A model generated the notes under the pieces. That model was not told the DNA's origin and did not search any database. It saw only the letters and a program-made list of their open reading frames with translations. A DNA stretch of 11,671 nucleotides, taken from positions 1-11,671 of the forward strand of contig JAAOZZ010000169.1 in assembly GCA_012274175.1 (NCBI GenBank), read 5' to 3'. Source of the DNA: Betaproteobacteria bacterium (lineage in GTDB: Bacteria; Pseudomonadota; Gammaproteobacteria; Burkholderiales; Usitatibacteraceae). A program made the position numbers and the translations under genes. Positions 1 through 8,093 of the stretch are shown in pieces. Every line of letters starts with the position of its first letter. The first letter of the stretch is position 1.

Positions 1-947
1 AGGAAGAAGCTCGCGGTGACCAGGTCGAGGGCGAGGCGGGCGAGGTCGTTCGAGATCGTCTCGGCCACGCGCTCGTTCAGCCCGACCCGGGCGGCGATTT
101 CCCCGGGGGAGCGCTGCGCGTAGAAGGCCATCGGCAGGGTGAGCGCGTGGGCGAGGAAGCCCCGAGCGGAGGCGCGAACCGCGCGCCCGAAAGTGTGGGT
201 GACGAGGCGCGCCTGGGCGAGGAGCAGCACGGAGCGCGCGGCTGCCGCCGCCAGCAGGCCCACGATGAGGGGCCCCGCCACGCCGCCGATGCGCGCCACC
301 AGCACCTGGTCGACGAAGCGGCCCAGCAGCCACGGCAGGAGGAGCCCGGGGACCACGAGCGCGAGCCCCAGCGTGAAGGCGAGCGCGATCGCGGGATGGA
401 AGCCGCGCAGGTAGCGCGCGAGGGAACGCGCCGCGGAGGGTGCCGCGCCGCCGCGGCGAAATTCGGGACCCGGCTCGAAGGTGAGCGCCACGCCGGTGAA
501 GGACCGGTCGAACTGGGCGATATCGACGCTGCGCCGGCCCCGCGCCGGGTCGTTGAGCCACACCCGGGCGCCGCGGATGCCCTCGAGCACCACGAAGTGG
601 TTGAAGTTCACGAACACGATGGCGGGCAGCGGAAGTGCCGCCAGCTCGCGCGGCTCCTTGCGGAATCCGCGCGCGACCATGCCGCGGCCGCGCGCGGCGC
701 GCAACAGCCCTCCCGCCTTGCTGCCGTCGCGGCTCACCCCGCATTCGATGCGCATCTGCTCGAGGGGCACGTGCAGGCCGTGGTAGGCGAACACCATCGC
801 GAGCGCGGCCGCGCCGCATTCCACCGCCTCCAGCTGCAGGATGACGGGCGTGCGGTGCAGGCGCGTTTCCGGCAGCGGCGCGCGCGCCGACTCCGGCCCG
901 GGGGCCGAGGCGGCCTCTTCGCCGCTCAGCGCACCAGCAGCAGCCAT
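1..947 (-). CDS. NHLP/NHLM-type bacteriocin exporter, C39 peptidase-ABC transporter (3' part outside window)
   Basis: The 315 visible codons are the N-terminal part of a peptidase-containing ABC exporter, which cleaves a double-glycine-type leader from a precursor peptide and pumps the product across the inner membrane. Residues about 34-160 form a C39 peptidase: Gln38 (oxyanion hole) and Cys44 in QLEAVECGAAAL, His117 in NFNHFVVLEG, and Asp133 in LNDP, so the catalytic set looks complete. Phrases such as GVSRDGSKA and QFDRSFTGVALTFEPGPEF are typical of the NHLM subfamily rather than of colicin V exporters. From about residue 186 the membrane domain begins with hydrophobic segments at roughly 186-206 and 222-245, then PMAFYAQRSPGEIAARV, as in ABC exporter domains. 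The ATPase domain lies beyond the left edge. The ATG at 945-947 has no clear ribosome site and overlaps the upstream 58-codon gene by 22 nt, suggesting translational coupling. Residues 1-27 are a low-complexity extension. Family assignment is from remembered family patterns, not a search. Confidence 0.88.
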   Translation of the reverse strand, partial: MAAAGALSGEEAASAPGPESARAPLPETRLHRTPVILQLEAVECGAAALAMVFAYHGLHVPLEQMRIECGVSRDGSKAGGLLRAARGRGMVARGFRKEPRELAALPLPAIVFVNFNHFVVLEGIRGARVWLNDPARGRRSVDIAQFDRSFTGVALTFEPGPEFRRGGAAPSAARSLARYLRGFHPAIALAFTLGLALVVPGLLLPWLLGRFVDQVLVARIGGVAGPLIVGLLAAAAARSVLLLAQARLVTHTFGRAVRASARGFLAHALTLPMAFYAQRSPGEIAARVGLNERVAETISNDLARLALDLVTASFF

Positions 948-1102
948 GCGGCGAACGCGCCCACGCCGGCGAGCAGCGCGGCGAGGGTCGCGAGCAGGGG
1001 AAGGGGATAGGGCGGCATGCCCACGCGCTCGTCGATGCGCTCGGGTGAGGCGAGGCGGTCGAGCGCCGCCTTGCGGAAGATCGCGGAGTCGTCGACCGGC
1101 AT
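926..1102 (-). CDS. 58-aa single-TM protein resembling the N-terminus of an NHLM HlyD-type secretion protein
   Basis: This short gene encodes a cytosolic segment FRKAALDRLASPERIDE (residues 9-25) followed by one hydrophobic helix (about 33-56) and then stops. The F-R-K-x-A-L-x-R-L-x-S-P-E-x-x-D pattern is the hallmark start of the HlyD-like membrane fusion proteins of NHLM bacteriocin systems, which normally continue for several hundred residues with a periplasmic hairpin and lipoyl domains. Here nothing follows the helix: the exporter begins 22 nt before the TGA in another frame, so no full-length adaptor can be restored by one frameshift. It sits 4 nt after the upstream gene's stop, and the operon order (CNB protein, adaptor, C39-ABC) is the expected one. 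It could be a deletion remnant or a functional minimal membrane subunit. The ATG at 1100-1102 is chosen for its proximity to the upstream stop and because the family motif follows; the ribosome site is weak. The reading frame is clear, the function is inferred. Confidence 0.7.
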   Translation of the reverse strand: MPVDDSAIFRKAALDRLASPERIDERVGMPPYPLPLLATLAALLAGVGAFAAWLLLVR

Positions 1103-1106
1103 GGGG

Positions 1107-1631
1107 TCAGCCCGCGAGGCGCCTGAGCATCCGGTCGAAGCGCGCGCCCGCGAGATGCACCGTGTCGAGCAATTCCTCGTTGAGCTCGTCGCGCGCATGG
1201 GGATCCTCGGCGCCCGCGCCGTAGCCCAGGCGTCCCGTGGTCTGGCGCATGCGGTCGGCGAGGAAGACGCACAGCGCGCGGTAGAAGCGCGAGGCGAATC
1301 CCAGGTCGGCGGCGAGCCGGTCGCGCAGCACCGCGTCGGGGATGCGCAGCAGCGTCGATTCCTTCGTCACTTCCACCGACACGGTGGTGGGCGCCGGATC
1401 GACGAGCGACATCTCGCCCACGATCTCGCCCGATTCGAGGGTGCGCAGGATCTCGCCGGAGCGCGTGCGGATCGCGAGCTGGCCGTCGAGCACGAAGTAC
1501 ACGAACTCCACGCGCGCGGCGAGCGCGATCAGCACCATTCCCGGGTCGGCGTGCACGCGCTCGCCGGCGCCGGCGAGCCACTCCACGTCGCCGTCGGAGA
1601 GCACGCTGAAGATGAAAAGGACCTTGCGCAC
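1107..1631 (-). CDS. Stand-alone cyclic-nucleotide-binding-fold (CNB/CRP-like) protein, first gene of export operon
   Basis: The 174-residue product is essentially one cNMP-binding beta-roll (about residues 3-125) with a helical tail and no helix-turn-helix, so it is not a CRP-type transcription factor. Visible family features are GDVEWLAGAGERVHADPGMVLI, the turn YFVLDGQLAI, and the phosphate-binding-cassette region GEIVGEMSLVD (68-78). The arginine that contacts the cyclic phosphate in CRP-like cassettes is not present: the sequence after the cassette helix is APTTVSVEV. Ligand binding may therefore be altered or lost. Single-domain proteins of this type commonly accompany bacteriocin-type export genes, and here it is 4 nt upstream of the reduced secretion protein. 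Translation is taken to start at GTG 1629-1631, with GGGGAGGGG ending five bases upstream; a longer open frame up to 1754 exists but its extension does not look like protein of this family. Probable role is cytosolic regulation or assembly of the exporter, which is inference. Confidence 0.82.
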   Translation of the reverse strand: MRKVLFIFSVLSDGDVEWLAGAGERVHADPGMVLIALAARVEFVYFVLDGQLAIRTRSGEILRTLESGEIVGEMSLVDPAPTTVSVEVTKESTLLRIPDAVLRDRLAADLGFASRFYRALCVFLADRMRQTTGRLGYGAGAEDPHARDELNEELLDTVHLAGARFDRMLRRLAG

Positions 1632-1784
1632 GGCGCCCCTCCCCGAGGCCGATGAATTGGCCAGAGTGTACCGAAGCCCGCGCCGGGAGGCCCTATGCCG
1701 GCCTTCCAGGGCGGCATTCCGTCCCCAGGGAGATGCGGGACCGCGAATAGTCACTACGTGCCCCCTTTGTGCCGCCTGGGGCGG

Positions 1785-1952: not shown

Positions 1953-2393
1953 ATGAAGCAGTCCCAGAAGGGCTTCACCCTGATCGAACTGATGATCGTG
2001 GTCGCGATCATCGGCATCCTGGCCGCCATCGCCATCCCCGCGTACCAGGACTACCTCAACCGTTCGAAGATGACCGAAGTGCTGGCCGCGGTGAGCGCGT
2101 GCAAGACGGGCGTTTCGGAAGCCGCGGCCGCCAAGAACGTGCTGCCCGCCGACATCACCGCTGCGGGCTGCTCGAACACCCCCACGCAGTACATGTCGAA
2201 CATGGATGTCGCCGCCGGCGTGATCAGCGCCACGGTGAACAACATCGCCGACCAGACGGGCAAGATCGTGAAGATGTCGCCCTCCAAGACCGCCATGCCG
2301 ACGTTCACGGCCGCGGGCGACGGCGACTCGATCGTGGGCTGGCAGTGTTCCTACGACGGCCTCGCCAAGTACGTTCCGGCGACCTGCCGCTAA
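1953..2393 (+). CDS. pilA: Major type IV pilin (PilA-type prepilin)
   Basis: The 146-residue product is a type IVa prepilin. A 7-residue leader MKQSQKG is followed by the cleavage and methylation site at Phe8, Glu12 (mature position 5), and the hydrophobic assembly helix [20 protein letters not shown]. The prepilin peptidase PilD would remove the leader; the mature subunit polymerises at the inner membrane into surface pili used for adhesion, twitching and DNA uptake. The globular part has four cysteines, Cys50, Cys73, Cys132 and Cys145. The last two bracket a C-terminal disulfide loop ([17 protein letters not shown]), and Cys50-Cys73 probably forms a second bridge. Length is typical. ATG 1953 is set by AAAGGAA at 1942-1948 and by the conserved leader; the open frame extends further upstream to 1695 without pilin sequence. 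The gene is monocistronic, with a sigma-54 promoter before it and a terminator after it. A secondary pilin rather than the major one cannot be ruled out. Confidence 0.95.
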
Positions 2394-2464: not shown

Positions 2465-2551
2465 TGGTGCCGGGAGAGGGAATCGAACCCTCATGGTGTC
2501 GCCACCGCGGGATTTTGAGTCCCGTGCGTCTACCAATTCCGCCATCCCGGC
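2465..2551 (-). tRNA. tRNA-Leu, anticodon CAA
   Basis: The 87-nt gene folds as a class II tRNA. The acceptor stem is GCCGGGA pairing with TCCCGGC, with discriminator A and a genome-encoded CCA (2465-2467). The D arm contains TTGGTAGACGC. The anticodon stem CGGGA/TCCCG encloses loop CTCAAAA with anticodon CAA at 2515-2517. A long variable arm (GGTGGCGACACC) and the T arm with GGTTCGATTCC complete the leucine-type cloverleaf. It decodes UUG. A TATAAT box on the minus strand at 2569-2574 gives a leader of about 11 nt before the mature 5' end. Confidence 0.97.
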
Positions 2552-2582: not shown

Positions 2583-3604
2583 ATGCACCTGGCCGACTTC
2601 GACTACGAGCTGCCTCCCGAGCTCATCGCGCAGCATCCCCCCGCCGAGCGCTCCGCGAGCCGCCTGCTGCGGCTGGACGGAGTCACCGGCGCCATCGAGG
2701 ACCGCGCCTTCCGCGAGCTCGCCGACTTCGTGGCTCCCGGCGACCTGCTGGTGTTCAACGACACGAAGGTGATCAAGGCGCGCCTGCATGGACGCAAGGC
2801 GAGCGGCGGCGCGGTGGAGATCCTCGTCGAGCGCATCCTCGACGCTTCGCGGGCGCTCGCCCACGTGCGCGCGAGCAAGCCGCCGCGGCCCGGCGGGCAG
2901 ATCGTGCTCGAGCGCGGCGGGTGGCCGAGGTGCTGGAGCGGCGCGGCGAGCTCTACGAGCTCCTGTTCCTCGACGGCCCCGTGCTCGACGTGCTCGATGC
3001 GTGGGGCGAGGTCCCGCTGCCGCCCTACATCACCCACGCCGCCGATGCCGAGGACGAGCGGCGCTACCAGACGGTGTACGCGCGCTCGCCCGGGGCGGTC
3101 GCCGCCCCCACGGCAGGGCTGCACTTCGACATGGACATGCTCGATGCGCTGCGCGCGAAAGGCGTGGCACTCGCGACCCTCACGCTGCACGTGGGAGCGG
3201 GCACCTTCCAGCCGGTGCGCGTGGAAGACGTCTCGGCGCACGTGATGCATTCCGAGTGGTACGGCATCCCCGAGACGACCGTGCAGGCGATCGCGAAGGC
3301 GCGCTCGGCGAAGGGCCGCGTGATGGCGGTGGGGACCACGACCTTGCGGGCGCTCGAATCGGCGGCCGCGGCGGGACCCCTCGCGGCGGGAAGCGCCGAG
3401 ACGCAGCTCTTCATCCTGCCCGGCTACCGCTTCCGGGTGGTCGACCGGCTGCTCACCAATTTCCACCTTCCGCGCTCCACGCTCCTCATGCTCGTGAGCG
3501 CATTCGCCGGCACGGAAAACATCCGCCGCGCCTACGCCCACGGGGTGGCCGAGCGCTACCGCTTCTTCAGCTACGGCGACGCGATGCTGCTCGAGCGCGC
3601 GTAG
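2583..3604 (+). pseudogene. queA: queA, S-adenosylmethionine:tRNA ribosyltransferase-isomerase, interrupted by a -1 frameshift
   Basis: QueA transfers and isomerises the ribose of S-adenosylmethionine onto 7-aminomethyl-7-deazaguanine at tRNA position 34, making epoxyqueuosine. The first 112 codons (2583-2918) give [35 protein letters not shown] and [11 protein letters not shown], all strongly QueA-like. The match then moves to the -1 frame, which runs from about 2921 to the TAG at 3602-3604 with [59 protein letters not shown] and [15 protein letters not shown]. Restoring one base in the GGG run at 2919-2921 would give an uninterrupted protein of about 340 residues, normal for the family. Without it, the start frame ends at 3245 with unrelated sequence. 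No catalytic block appears lost, so this is either a recent mutation or a sequencing or assembly error. The ATG has no normally spaced ribosome site. The usual partner tgt does not follow. Confidence 0.9.
2919..2921 (+). other. Frameshift site in queA (one base missing in a G run)
   Basis: Before this point QueA similarity is in the frame of ATG 2583; after it, similarity is in the frame beginning at 2921 ([16 protein letters not shown]). Adding one G to the GGG run reads E-R-G-G-V-A-E-V across the junction. Exact placement within the run is ambiguous by one or two bases. Confidence 0.8.
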
Positions 3605-4926: not shown

Positions 4927-5892
4927 ATGCTTAATCGCCCCCGCGCGCTGCCTCCGCTCGACCTGCTGCGGGGCTTCGAGGCGGCGGCGCGCCACCTGAG
5001 CTTCACCCGGGCGGCCGCGGAGCTCTACCTCACCCAGTCGGCGGTGAGCCGCCAGATCCAGGCGCTCGAGGACTTCGTGGGCGTCGCACTCTTCGAGCGC
5101 CGCCACAAGGCCCTCGGCCTCACCGAGGCGGGCCAGGCGTACTACCGCGTCGTGGCCCCGATGCTCCACGGCCTGCGCGAGGCCACGCGGCGGCTGCGCG
5201 AGTCGCGCACCGGCCACGTGCTCACGGTGACCACCACGATCTCGTTCGCGTCGCTGTGGCTCGTGGCGCGGCTCGCGCGCTGGCGCAAGGCGCACCCGGA
5301 CGTGGACGTGCGCATCAGCGCGAGCCACGAAGTGGTGGACATGGAACGCGACGGCATCGACCTCGCCATCCGCGACTGCCCGCTCGACCGCGCGCCGCCG
5401 GGCTCCGTGTACCTCGTGGGCGAGCACATCGCGGCGGTGTGCAGCCCGGGGTATGCGCGGCAGGCGCGCGCCGAGCGCCGTCCCCTGGCCCGTCCCGAGG
5501 ACTTGCGCCACCACGTGCTGTTGAACCTGCACGATCCCACCGGGCGCCTGCCGTGGCTCTCCTGGGCAGCGTGGCTGGAAGCGGCGGGCGTCGAGGAGCT
5601 CTCGCCCGCGGGCAGCCTTACCTTCGACCAGTACGACCAGGTGCTGCAGGCGGCGCTGCACGGGCAGGGGATCGCCCTGGGGCGCATGACGCTCGCGCGC
5701 CAGCACATCCGCGGCAAGCGCCTCGTGGCGCTCTTCGGGCGCCAGCAGCAGCTCGCGCGCGGCTTCCACGCGGTGTTCGCGGCCGGAGCGCGGGAGCGCC
5801 CCGAGGTGCGCGCGTTCGTCGAATGGCTGCGGGAGGAAATCCGCCGCGAGCCGGAAGCGGGTCCCGCGCCGCGCCGAGGCGAGAAGCCCTAG
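4927..5892 (+). CDS. LysR-family transcriptional regulator, GcvA-like
   Basis: The 321-residue product has a winged helix-turn-helix at about residues 9-67 (LRGFEAAARHLSFTRAAAEL, TQSAVSRQIQALEDFVGVALFERRHKALGLTEAG), a linker helix, and a two-lobed effector-binding domain from about 95 to 305 (VLTVTTTISFASLWLVARLARW, VRISASHEVVDMERDGIDLAIR, LVGEHIAAVCSPGYA). Length and the LPPLDLLRGFEAAARHLSF start place it with the GcvA-like group. It probably controls the divergent DUF2917 gene and itself. The ATG at 4927 is favoured by the conserved N-terminus, though its ribosome site is poor (GGGA immediately before it); GTG 4918 and TTG 4906 are in-frame alternatives. The effector cannot be deduced. Its TAG overlaps the convergent downstream gene's stop. 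Confidence 0.93.
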   Translation: MLNRPRALPPLDLLRGFEAAARHLSFTRAAAELYLTQSAVSRQIQALEDFVGVALFERRHKALGLTEAGQAYYRVVAPMLHGLREATRRLRESRTGHVLTVTTTISFASLWLVARLARWRKAHPDVDVRISASHEVVDMERDGIDLAIRDCPLDRAPPGSVYLVGEHIAAVCSPGYARQARAERRPLARPEDLRHHVLLNLHDPTGRLPWLSWAAWLEAAGVEELSPAGSLTFDQYDQVLQAALHGQGIALGRMTLARQHIRGKRLVALFGRQQQLARGFHAVFAAGARERPEVRAFVEWLREEIRREPEAGPAPRRGEKP

Positions 5893-8093
5893 GCGGCCGA
5901 TTCGAGCCGGCGCAGGTACCACGCCCGCGCGAGCGCTTCCGGCTGCGGCTCGCTGAAGAGGAAGCCCTGCATCTCGTCGCAGCCGTGGGCGCGCAGGAAT
6001 TCGAGCTGCGCGGCCGTCTCCACGCCCTCGGCCACGACCTTGAGCCCCAGGCTGCGGCCGAGGTTGATGATCGCGAGCGTGATCGCCATGTCCTCGGGCG
6101 AGCTGGAAGCATCCGAGAGGAAGGCGCGGTCGATCTTCAGCGCGTCGATGGGAAAGCGGCGCAGGTACGCGAGGCTCGAGTAGCCGGTGCCGAAGTCGTC
6201 CACCGACAGGCGCACGCCGTAGCGCTCGAGCTGGCGCAGCGTGCGGATCGTGTCCTCGGGATCCTGCATCAGCAGCGACTCGGTAAGCTCGAGCTCGAGC
6301 AGCCCCGGGTCGATGCCGGTCTCGGCGAGGAGGCGGGCCACGAGGACGTCGAGGCCGGGCCGGCGGAACTGCCGCGCCGAGATGTTGACCGAGATGGCGT
6401 TGGCGCCCATGCCGAGCGCGTGCCAGTCGCGGATCTGCGCGCAGGCGGTCGCGAGCACCCATTCGCCCACGGCCACGATGAGGTCGGTGTCCTCCAGGAT
6501 CGGCACGAACTCCGAAGGGGACAGCACGCCGTACTCCGGATGCCGCCAGCGCAGCAGTGCTTCGAATCCGGTGACCTCCCCGGTGCCCACGGCGATGCGC
6601 GGCTGGTAATGCAGCACGAACTCCCGGCGCTCGAGCGCCCCGCGCAGCGCGGTCTCGATCTTGAGCCGCCGCACGGCGCGCTCGTGCATCTCGCGCAGGA
6701 AGAACTGGAAGTTGTTGCGCCCGCGCTCCTTGGCGCGGTACATCGCGATGTCGGCGTTCTGGATCAGGGCCGCGGGGCTGGTGCCGTCCCCGGGATGGAT
6801 CGCGATGCCGATGCTCGCCGTGCAGTACACGCGCTGGCCCTCCAGGTCGAAGGCGCGGTGCAGCTCCTCGAGCACGGTGCGCGCATGGTTGGCCACCGCG
6901 TCGGTCCTTTCCACGTCGGTGAGGACGATCACGAACTCGTCGCTGCTGATGCGCGCCACGGTGTCCGCCTCCCGGGTGCAGCGCATGAGCCGCGCGGCCG
7001 CCTCCTTGAGGATGCGGTCGCCGAACTCGTGGCCGAAGGTGTCGTTCAGGGCCTTGAAGCGGTCCAGGTCCACGAAGAGCACCGCGACCATGCTCGCCTT
7101 GCGCTCGGCGTGGGCGAGCGCCTGGCCGAGGCGGTCGTAGAGCAGCGGGCGGCTCGGCAGCCCGGTGAGGGCGTCGCGAGTGGAGAAATAGCGCGAGCGC
7201 GCCTGGAGCTTGAGCTTCAGGTACCGGTTCCACAGCACGAGCAGCAGCGACAGGGCGAGGAGCGCGGCGGGCACTGTGGCGAGCGCGTAGAGCACGCGCA
7301 CGTCCAGCGGCGAGCGCAGCGCCCGGCCGGCCCAGCGGGCCTCGATGCGATCCAGCTCCTCGCGCCCGATGCCGTCGAAGCCGCGCTGCACGGCTTCGCG
7401 CAGCTTCCCGTTGCCGCGGCGCACCGCCCAGTGCAGCGCGGCCGTGTACAGGGGAGGGGTCTCGCGGAAGGCGTCCGCAAGCCCGTCGCGATAGAGGAAG
7501 TAGCTCGCCACGGGAGCGTCCATGCAGAAGACGCCCACCTCGTCCTGGCCCGCGGCCCGCACCAGCGCCTCGGAATCCGCGTAGGTGCGCAGCTTGCGCG
7601 CGCCCCGCTCCCGCAGCCACTCGGCGCAGGCGCTGCCGTCCTTGACGCCCACGGGGAGGTCGCGCACATCGGCGGCGCCGCGGATCCCGCCCAGCGAGCG
7701 GCGGAAGTAAAGCCGCGCCTGCATCGGCGCCTGGCCGCGGGAGAACTCGAACAGGGACGAGCGCTGCGGGGTGAGCACCAGGCCGTCGATCACGTCGGCG
7801 CCGCCGTCGAGCACGCTGCGCTGCGCGCCGGTCCATTCCATTCCCCGCACTTCCACCGCGATCCCGGTCTTGCGGGACCACAGCGCCCATTTGTCCATGA
7901 CGATGCCCTGCAGGCGCCCGTCGTCGTCGCGGAAGAGGTAGGGCGGATAGTGGTCGTCGGTCACGACCACGAGGCGTGCGGGGGGCGCGGGCGCGGCGGC
8001 GTGGGCCGGCCCGGCCGTCCATGCACACGCCAAGGCGAGCGCCAGCGCGAAACGCGCGATGCCCGCCGCGACGGTCGCCAGGGCGCTTTTCAC
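5889..8093 (-). CDS. Periplasmic-sensor GGDEF-EAL protein, probable c-di-GMP phosphodiesterase with degenerate GGDEF
   Basis: The 734-residue protein has a signal peptide (1-33), a periplasmic solute-binding-type sensor (about 40-255; VTDDHYPPYLFRDDDGRLQGI, ADVIDGL), one transmembrane helix (about 268-288), a GGDEF domain (about 300-460) and an EAL domain (about 475-725). In the GGDEF domain the signature is RISSDEF (SSDEF at 383-387), so the substrate loop glycines are replaced. The inhibitory-site motif RxxD is kept (READ, 374-377, five residues upstream). The EAL domain shows EALLRW (511-516), NIS, ELTES, DDFGTGYSSL (632-641), KIDRAF, EGVET (689-693) and QGFLF, the usual catalytic and metal-binding set. 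It therefore probably hydrolyses c-di-GMP in response to a small periplasmic ligand, with the GGDEF domain regulatory. The GTG at 8091-8093 overlaps the preceding stop by four bases (GTGA), so it is the last gene of the chemoreceptor operon. Confidence 0.94.
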   Translation of the reverse strand: MKSALATVAAGIARFALALALACAWTAGPAHAAAPAPPARLVVVTDDHYPPYLFRDDDGRLQGIVMDKWALWSRKTGIAVEVRGMEWTGAQRSVLDGGADVIDGLVLTPQRSSLFEFSRGQAPMQARLYFRRSLGGIRGAADVRDLPVGVKDGSACAEWLRERGARKLRTYADSEALVRAAGQDEVGVFCMDAPVASYFLYRDGLADAFRETPPLYTAALHWAVRRGNGKLREAVQRGFDGIGREELDRIEARWAGRALRSPLDVRVLYALATVPAALLALSLLLVLWNRYLKLKLQARSRYFSTRDALTGLPSRPLLYDRLGQALAHAERKASMVAVLFVDLDRFKALNDTFGHEFGDRILKEAAARLMRCTREADTVARISSDEFVIVLTDVERTDAVANHARTVLEELHRAFDLEGQRVYCTASIGIAIHPGDGTSPAALIQNADIAMYRAKERGRNNFQFFLREMHERAVRRLKIETALRGALERREFVLHYQPRIAVGTGEVTGFEALLRWRHPEYGVLSPSEFVPILEDTDLIVAVGEWVLATACAQIRDWHALGMGANAISVNISARQFRRPGLDVLVARLLAETGIDPGLLELELTESLLMQDPEDTIRTLRQLERYGVRLSVDDFGTGYSSLAYLRRFPIDALKIDRAFLSDASSSPEDMAITLAIINLGRSLGLKVVAEGVETAAQLEFLRAHGCDEMQGFLFSEPQPEALARAWYLRRLESAA

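Follow-up and report, generated by a model that had tools for sequence, protein, structure and literature searches.

Membrane fusion proteins are usually regarded as a bridge to the outer membrane. What, then, is a gene of 58 codons doing where such an adaptor would be expected, directly in front of a C39 peptidase-ABC exporter gene? The window analysed here is a complete contig (C264) of 11,671 bp, in a 3.14-Mb genome that is 80.6% complete and divided into 479 contigs. Its left end carries, in order of transcription, a gene for a cyclic-nucleotide-binding (CNB) protein, the short gene and the first part of the exporter gene ABC1 (Table 1). The CNB gene ends at 1107; 4 nt further on begins the short gene, whose product is MPVDDSAIFRKAALDRLASPERIDERVGMPPYPLPLLATLAALLAGVGAFAAWLLLVR (ATG at 1102, stop at 926–928); this upstream spacing and the 22-nt downstream overlap are as the initial annotation had given them. 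An AlphaFold2 model of the short protein (mean pLDDT 83) contains helices at residues 3–17, 20–27 and 34–57, the last with a block pLDDT of 91–99 and a hydropathy of up to 2.2. The CNB protein matches PF00027 and the later part of the TIGR03896 model (positions 139–317; 119.4 bits, cut-off of 161.05 not reached). The ABC1 part matches Peptidase_C39 (Pfam) and positions 1–284 of 710 of TIGR03796; its 334.9 bits lie below the cut-off of 853.3 because the gene is cut by the contig end. We take C44, H117 and D133 of this protein to be the candidate C39 catalytic triad. Elsewhere in the window, the split of queA is either an assembly indel or a real frameshift, and a Pfam match at 1955–2393 was set aside as out of frame.

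Table 1 Features of the window, with the evidence for each.
Feature	Position	Strand	Evidence or remark
C39 peptidase-ABC exporter (NHLM ABC1), first 315 codons, cut by contig end	3..947	minus	TIGR03796, Peptidase_C39
ABC1 H117 and D133, candidate rest of triad	597–599 and 549–551	minus	positions checked
ABC1 C44, candidate C39 catalytic Cys	816..818	minus	position checked
Short adaptor gene, 58 aa + stop	926..1102	minus	short copies in 15/28 family genomes
Overlap of short gene with ABC1 frame, 22 nt	926..947	.	ABC1 frame starts at 947
Predicted membrane helix, residues 34–57 of short protein	932..1003	minus	AlphaFold2 model, hydropathy
Residues 9–24 of short protein, FRKAALDRLASPERID, motif common with full NHLM HlyD, predicted to lie on the cytoplasmic side	1031..1078	minus	13-protein alignment and 9 full HlyDs
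CNB protein, 174–176 aa, of a kind found with bacteriocin-type transport	1107..1637	minus	TIGR03896, PF00027
Type IV pilin-like protein, upstream of tRNA-Leu	1953..2393	plus	N-terminal motif only
tRNA-Leu	2465..2551	minus	
queA (queuosine synthesis), split between two frames near 2921–2930	2583..3604	plus	PF02547 positions 2–104 in first frame, 108–322 in second
SBP_bac_3, GGDEF and EAL domains in one protein	5889..8093	minus	

The short gene is a genuine gene and not an error. The family, comprising Usitatibacter and its kin, was examined in 28 genomes. A tblastn search of loci fetched with TIGR03796 showed that relatives, too, have the short gene between CNB and ABC1. A profile (A1) built from 13 short proteins, the window's included, matches in 15 of the 28 genomes, with a short copy in each. 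The 13 proteins read out are 54–59 residues long, and two further ones (G018 and G021) have 55 and 58 residues from ATG. At all 13 loci the ABC1 frame, with candidate start codons, overlaps the short gene by 4–22 nt. In a set of 5.8 billion proteins, profile A1 finds 790 clusters at E ≤ 0.01 among 7,986 scored, and the best 120 of the 790 all have 54–59 residues. Eleven columns are invariant in the 13 proteins, including R10, A13, L14, R16, L17, S19, P20 and D24. With codons in the ABC1 overlap left out, pN is below pS in 78 of 78 gene pairs, and the median dN/dS of 0.445 (76 pairs with finite dS) denotes moderate rather than strong constraint. That a full HlyD gene was here cut short by a mistake in assembly or sequencing can practically be dismissed: small errors may exist in this contig, given the queA frame break near 2921–2930, but other genomes, among them three assembled as one contig, have this short gene in the same position. 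The initial annotation had already argued from the spacing against a simple sequencing error, and with the short gene conserved across family genomes we rejected assembly error as its cause.

Profile comparison identifies the 58-residue protein, at the level of sequence, as a reduced NHLM HlyD adaptor in which the N-terminal motif and membrane helix are kept and the periplasmic part is lost. The 58 residues alone have no Pfam or NCBIfam match at E ≤ 1, and they do not reach the 156.2-bit cut-off of TIGR03794 (NHLP bacteriocin system secretion protein), the model that recognizes full NHLM HlyD adaptors. Because the TIGR03794 alignment begins only at residue 10–21 in five full HlyDs, a short match is easily missed. 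By hhalign, the 13-homologue profile matches nine full NHLM HlyDs over columns 1–53 with a probability of 98 and an E value of 2.2e-13; five of these nine were scanned, and all five (422–481 aa) exceed the TIGR03794 cut-off. Profile A1 also matches long frames in whole genomes, with E values down to 4e-12. Short and full proteins have in common the motif FRK.AL.RL(A/S)SPE.LD, a following helix with a Trp at its end and a position directly before ABC1. They differ in that the short proteins (54–59 aa) stop where the periplasmic part of the full HlyDs begins, whereas the full proteins continue. These results bear out the initial annotation, which had likened the N-terminus to the start of NHLM HlyDs, had staked that likeness on residues 9–25, where the shared motif lies, and had noted that the protein ends right after the helix.

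Beyond the family, profile A1 matches 8 of 369 genomes sampled across the class (the window's own and seven others with frames of 423–523 aa) and 9 of 398 sampled across the phylum (the window's own, seven with long frames and one with stops inside). The long frames of the phylum-wide sample span 422–570 aa, with one of 247 aa (L221) that continues beyond the helix with further sequence resembling full HlyDs. The match with two stops inside (G1001, E 9e-4) was judged to be due to chance. Neither sample held a convincing short copy outside the family. An alternative reading makes the short ORF a relic of a lost HlyD, kept for translational coupling to ABC1 while its protein is functionless. The overlap seen at all 13 loci and the moderate dN/dS would suit such a relic; the eleven invariant columns, the depression of pN in every pair and the identity of the conserved motif with that of full HlyDs all speak against it, and we consider it quite improbable.

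Is the reduction peculiar to this genome? In a tree of 29 ABC1 proteins, one branch with 100/100 support separates the 14 short-group rows among exporters with full HlyDs. The tree is rooted by midpoint only and leaves out the fragment L177; of its columns the window occupies 40% and L175 18%, and L020 and L173 drew a long-branch warning. This topology indicates one reduction common to a single exporter clade rather than the local deletion, fusing the anchor to the exporter gene, that the initial annotation had offered as one option. All 15 short-group ABC1s have the C39 Cys motif. The His and Asp motifs, located with an eye-guided pattern after a first pattern had missed Asp in most of the group and His in L045, are present in all 14 that are long enough; the remaining one, L177, is cut. 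All 11 of sufficient length also carry Walker A, signature and Walker B motifs. Among relatives, the full ABC1 of L036 scores 908.5 bits against TIGR03796, and that of G020 scores 852.5, just under the cut-off.

The second ABC gene (ABC2), which lies outside the window, follows ABC1 in relatives. In L036 its best-scoring family is TIGR03797 (673.4 bits, cut-off 709.4). The order CNB–HlyD–ABC1–ABC2 is canonical in loci such as L166, L169 and L170, and in the canonical loci L050 and L134 CNB comes after ABC2. Short-group ABC2 proteins have 714–719 aa in six of nine uncut gene calls, the other three being called shorter, versus 866–993 aa for six canonical frames (L051 and L134, whose frames ran on upstream, were left out of this count), so that ABC2 seems to be reduced too. 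Canonical ABC2 frames (L166:9939-12803, L167:2600-5506 and L169:12290-15199) have an N-terminus longer by about 150–280 residues than the ABC2 of the short system. The NHLM three-gene exporter consists of TIGR03794, TIGR03796 and TIGR03797 in the available part of its description (PMC2887384). Relative to that account, the short system is alike in its C39-ABC, second ABC and CNB neighbour, and differs in its reduced adaptor, shorter ABC2 and a leader that is not recognized as NHLP. Apart from the exporter genes, no gene cluster recurs in the neighbourhood of more than half of the compared loci.

We looked in relatives for what lies past the left edge of the window, where the initial annotation had suggested seeking a full HlyD. 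No full NHLM HlyD is found there; ABC2 stands in that place, followed by a convergent gene for a double-Gly peptide of 77–79 residues. Such a 77–79-codon gene follows ABC2 in 8 of 8 loci reaching beyond ABC2, and the pair recurs in G001, G016, G018 and G019; in all 12 genomes with a strong match the peptide gene is convergent and adjoins ABC2. In three of these (G016, G018 and G019), the peptide–ABC2 pair and the short gene are on different contigs. Among public proteins, a short protein (P0026, AB7P08_00670) and a peptide (P0138, AB7P08_00685), linked by sharing a longest contig of 535,165 bp, are about three genes apart by their numbering. Strong peptide matches (E ≤ 1e-15) occur in 12 of the 28 family genomes, every one with the short gene, and in none of the 13 family genomes without it (Fisher p 1.5e-5, uncorrected for relatedness). 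Weak matches (E 1e-5 to 0.01) occur in six of those 13 (G008, G017, G023, G024, G025 and G027); the ones that were read out are signal-type proteins, that of G008 lying inside a 788-aa frame. Three genomes have the short gene and no peptide (G000, the window's own, G020 and G021), and there the contigs end in ABC1 or ABC2. As the window contig ends inside ABC1 and a peptide search of its own genome gave no match, the substrate is read from relatives, in which it is most likely the linked double-Gly peptide. Of 399 genomes of the order, six have a match to the peptide profile (E ≤ 0.001); in five, all family members, the match spans the full length, and in G194 it covers positions 3–36, mostly leader.

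The leader of the peptide ends in ELSDQQLDxVSGG, and two repeats such as VVKLEKITVTAKRE stand behind the double Gly; copies with three boxes also exist (P0122 and P0136). Three mature peptides that we computed have 52–57 residues, no Cys, two box repeats and a short tail. The NHLP leader model TIGR03793 gives 14.2 and 16.2 bits against a cut-off of 50.9 and leaves the third peptide unmatched. The CTB family bacteriocin model NF038167 gives 19.3, 21.9 and 19.9 bits and its 32-bit cut-off is not reached; the peptide is like that family in the leader region with its double Gly (19–22 bits) and differs by a core of TonB-box-like repeats. A regular-expression screen of 14 canonical loci yielded no ORF with double Gly and TonB-like boxes and two GG-like ORFs without boxes; as the screen recovered only 9 of 12 known peptide loci, the negative result is a weak one.

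The predicted mature peptide begins with two repeats that resemble the TonB boxes of receptors in the same genomes. From 61 receptor matches tallied in G002–G004 we fetched the N-termini of 30 (for example, QKVEKIEVTGSN and KLETITVTASP; several have no clear box) and derived a receptor-only motif. Against it, 7 of 12 repeats, taken from the peptides of six of the twelve genomes, score above 8 and the remaining five score 3.7–7.7. Only 1 of 54,443 background windows exceeds 8, scoring 8.2, and it falls in a receptor gene, a 750-aa frame of L037 overlapping a Plug match. Of 12,000 cores obtained by shuffling, 1% score 5.9 or more, with a maximum of 11.5, so single weak repeats are no proof; the pairing of the repeats and their position right behind the double Gly provide the stronger argument for TonB boxes. 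In TonB-dependent receptors, a short box lies near the mature N-terminus, according to the available portion of PMC11658791. The peptide is alike in its box (KLEKITVTA, receptors KVEKIEVTG) and differs from the receptors described there in having two or three boxes, a GG leader and neither plug nor barrel.

Similar cores are found behind a different N-terminus. In one genus of the family (g2), 11 of 13 genomes lack the short gene, and strong matches (E ≤ 1e-10) to small signal-type proteins, whose profile was built from such g2 genomes, occur in 9 of the 28 family genomes, all g2. These proteins have a hydrophobic N-terminus that we judged by eye to be signal-like, and 10 of the 11 read out have tandem TonB boxes (L106, L107, L108, L110, L111, L114, L116, L117, L119 and L122), with one box in L121. 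One genome (G019) has both the GG-leader peptide and signal-type proteins, three of the latter within about 4 kb. The signal-type profile finds 1007 homologues at E ≤ 0.01 among 5732 candidates, and no gene cluster near signal-type peptides is common to more than two of eight loci. Tandem boxes behind a signal-like N-terminus, as in g2, would be the expected arrangement for a core with a periplasmic place of action.

An exporter with a truncated adaptor might instead borrow a full-length HlyD and a TolC whose genes lie elsewhere in the genome, and so secrete the peptide to the outside, where its TonB boxes would aid entry into neighbours in the manner of a small bacteriocin. A secreted bacteriocin, too, could have a double-Gly leader joined to a TonB box. 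In the available part of PMC12511343, microcin V leaves by a C39-ABC, an adaptor and TolC, and group B colicins have a TonB box of their own. Class II microcin export as set out there (CvaB, CvaA and TolC) is like the short system in that a C39-ABC handles the precursor, and differs by using a full membrane fusion protein and TolC. Candidates for borrowing exist, with HlyD-model matches at E ≤ 0.001 in 27 of the 27 genomes searched with TIGR03794, as in the window's own genome, where one adjoins a C39-type ABC of its own (G000:C113). However, 12 of 14 control genomes match likewise, and only 5 of the 27 (G001, G014, G121, G185 and G194) hold an NHLM HlyD above cut-off. No match reaches the cut-off in the window's own genome or in the one-contig genomes G002, G003 and G004, all of which carry the short gene; the best scores in these three one-contig genomes are 63.9, 49.3 and 58.8 bits. 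The best such HlyDs in G000, G002, G003 and G004 are far under the NHLM cut-off and beside another ABC gene, and similar HlyDs also exist in family members that lack the short gene, such as G006 and G008. The make-up of the three computed mature peptides and the lack of a neighbour cluster in more than half of the loci further weigh against secretion, which we regard as unlikely. Other adaptors of the HlyD type, the borrowing raised by the initial annotation, might still act in trans. Two genomes (G001 and G014) carry the short system together with a full NHLM HlyD above cut-off elsewhere, and in G001 an NHLM system with full HlyD and one with the short adaptor (L047 and L048) lend themselves to comparison within a single genome.

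On balance we favour, with some reserve, a hairpin-less NHLM exporter that places a TonB-box peptide in the periplasm. In this proposal the CNB protein, the 58-residue protein, ABC1 with its C39 peptidase and ABC2 would form an exporter unable alone to bridge to the outer membrane, the anchor docking on the ABC pair through its cytoplasmic motif. ABC1, which has the C39 motifs, would cut after the double Gly, and a peptide of about 50–57 residues, whose two TonB boxes (three in some homologues) begin close to the N-terminus, would be set free in the periplasm, there being no hairpin to reach a duct in the outer membrane. Periplasm-only export, one option of the initial annotation, is the one favoured by the relatives, the destination itself being a prediction from the missing hairpin. 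Once there, the boxes might bind TonB as a decoy or as a regulator of TonB-dependent receptors; free TonB-box peptides can inhibit TonB-dependent uptake. More tentatively, and with less confidence than in the proposal just given, we suggest that the exporter could put a tandem TonB-box decoy into the producer's own periplasm, throttling TonB or redistributing it among receptors, while the sister genus could deliver a similar core with a Sec-like N-terminus.

A lasting anchor-only adaptor departs from prior knowledge of such adaptors. The conserved short form sets the portion that may assist the ABC pair apart from the bridging portion and provides a naturally occurring minimal subunit with which to test that division. 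The TonB-box peptide linked to it gives a means of testing the destination and suggests a further level of control over TonB-dependent uptake, one that did not appear in our literature search. If the proposal is true, these bacteria would make their own regulator of TonB traffic and export it by a peptide-exporter architecture that has kept only the anchor of its adaptor.
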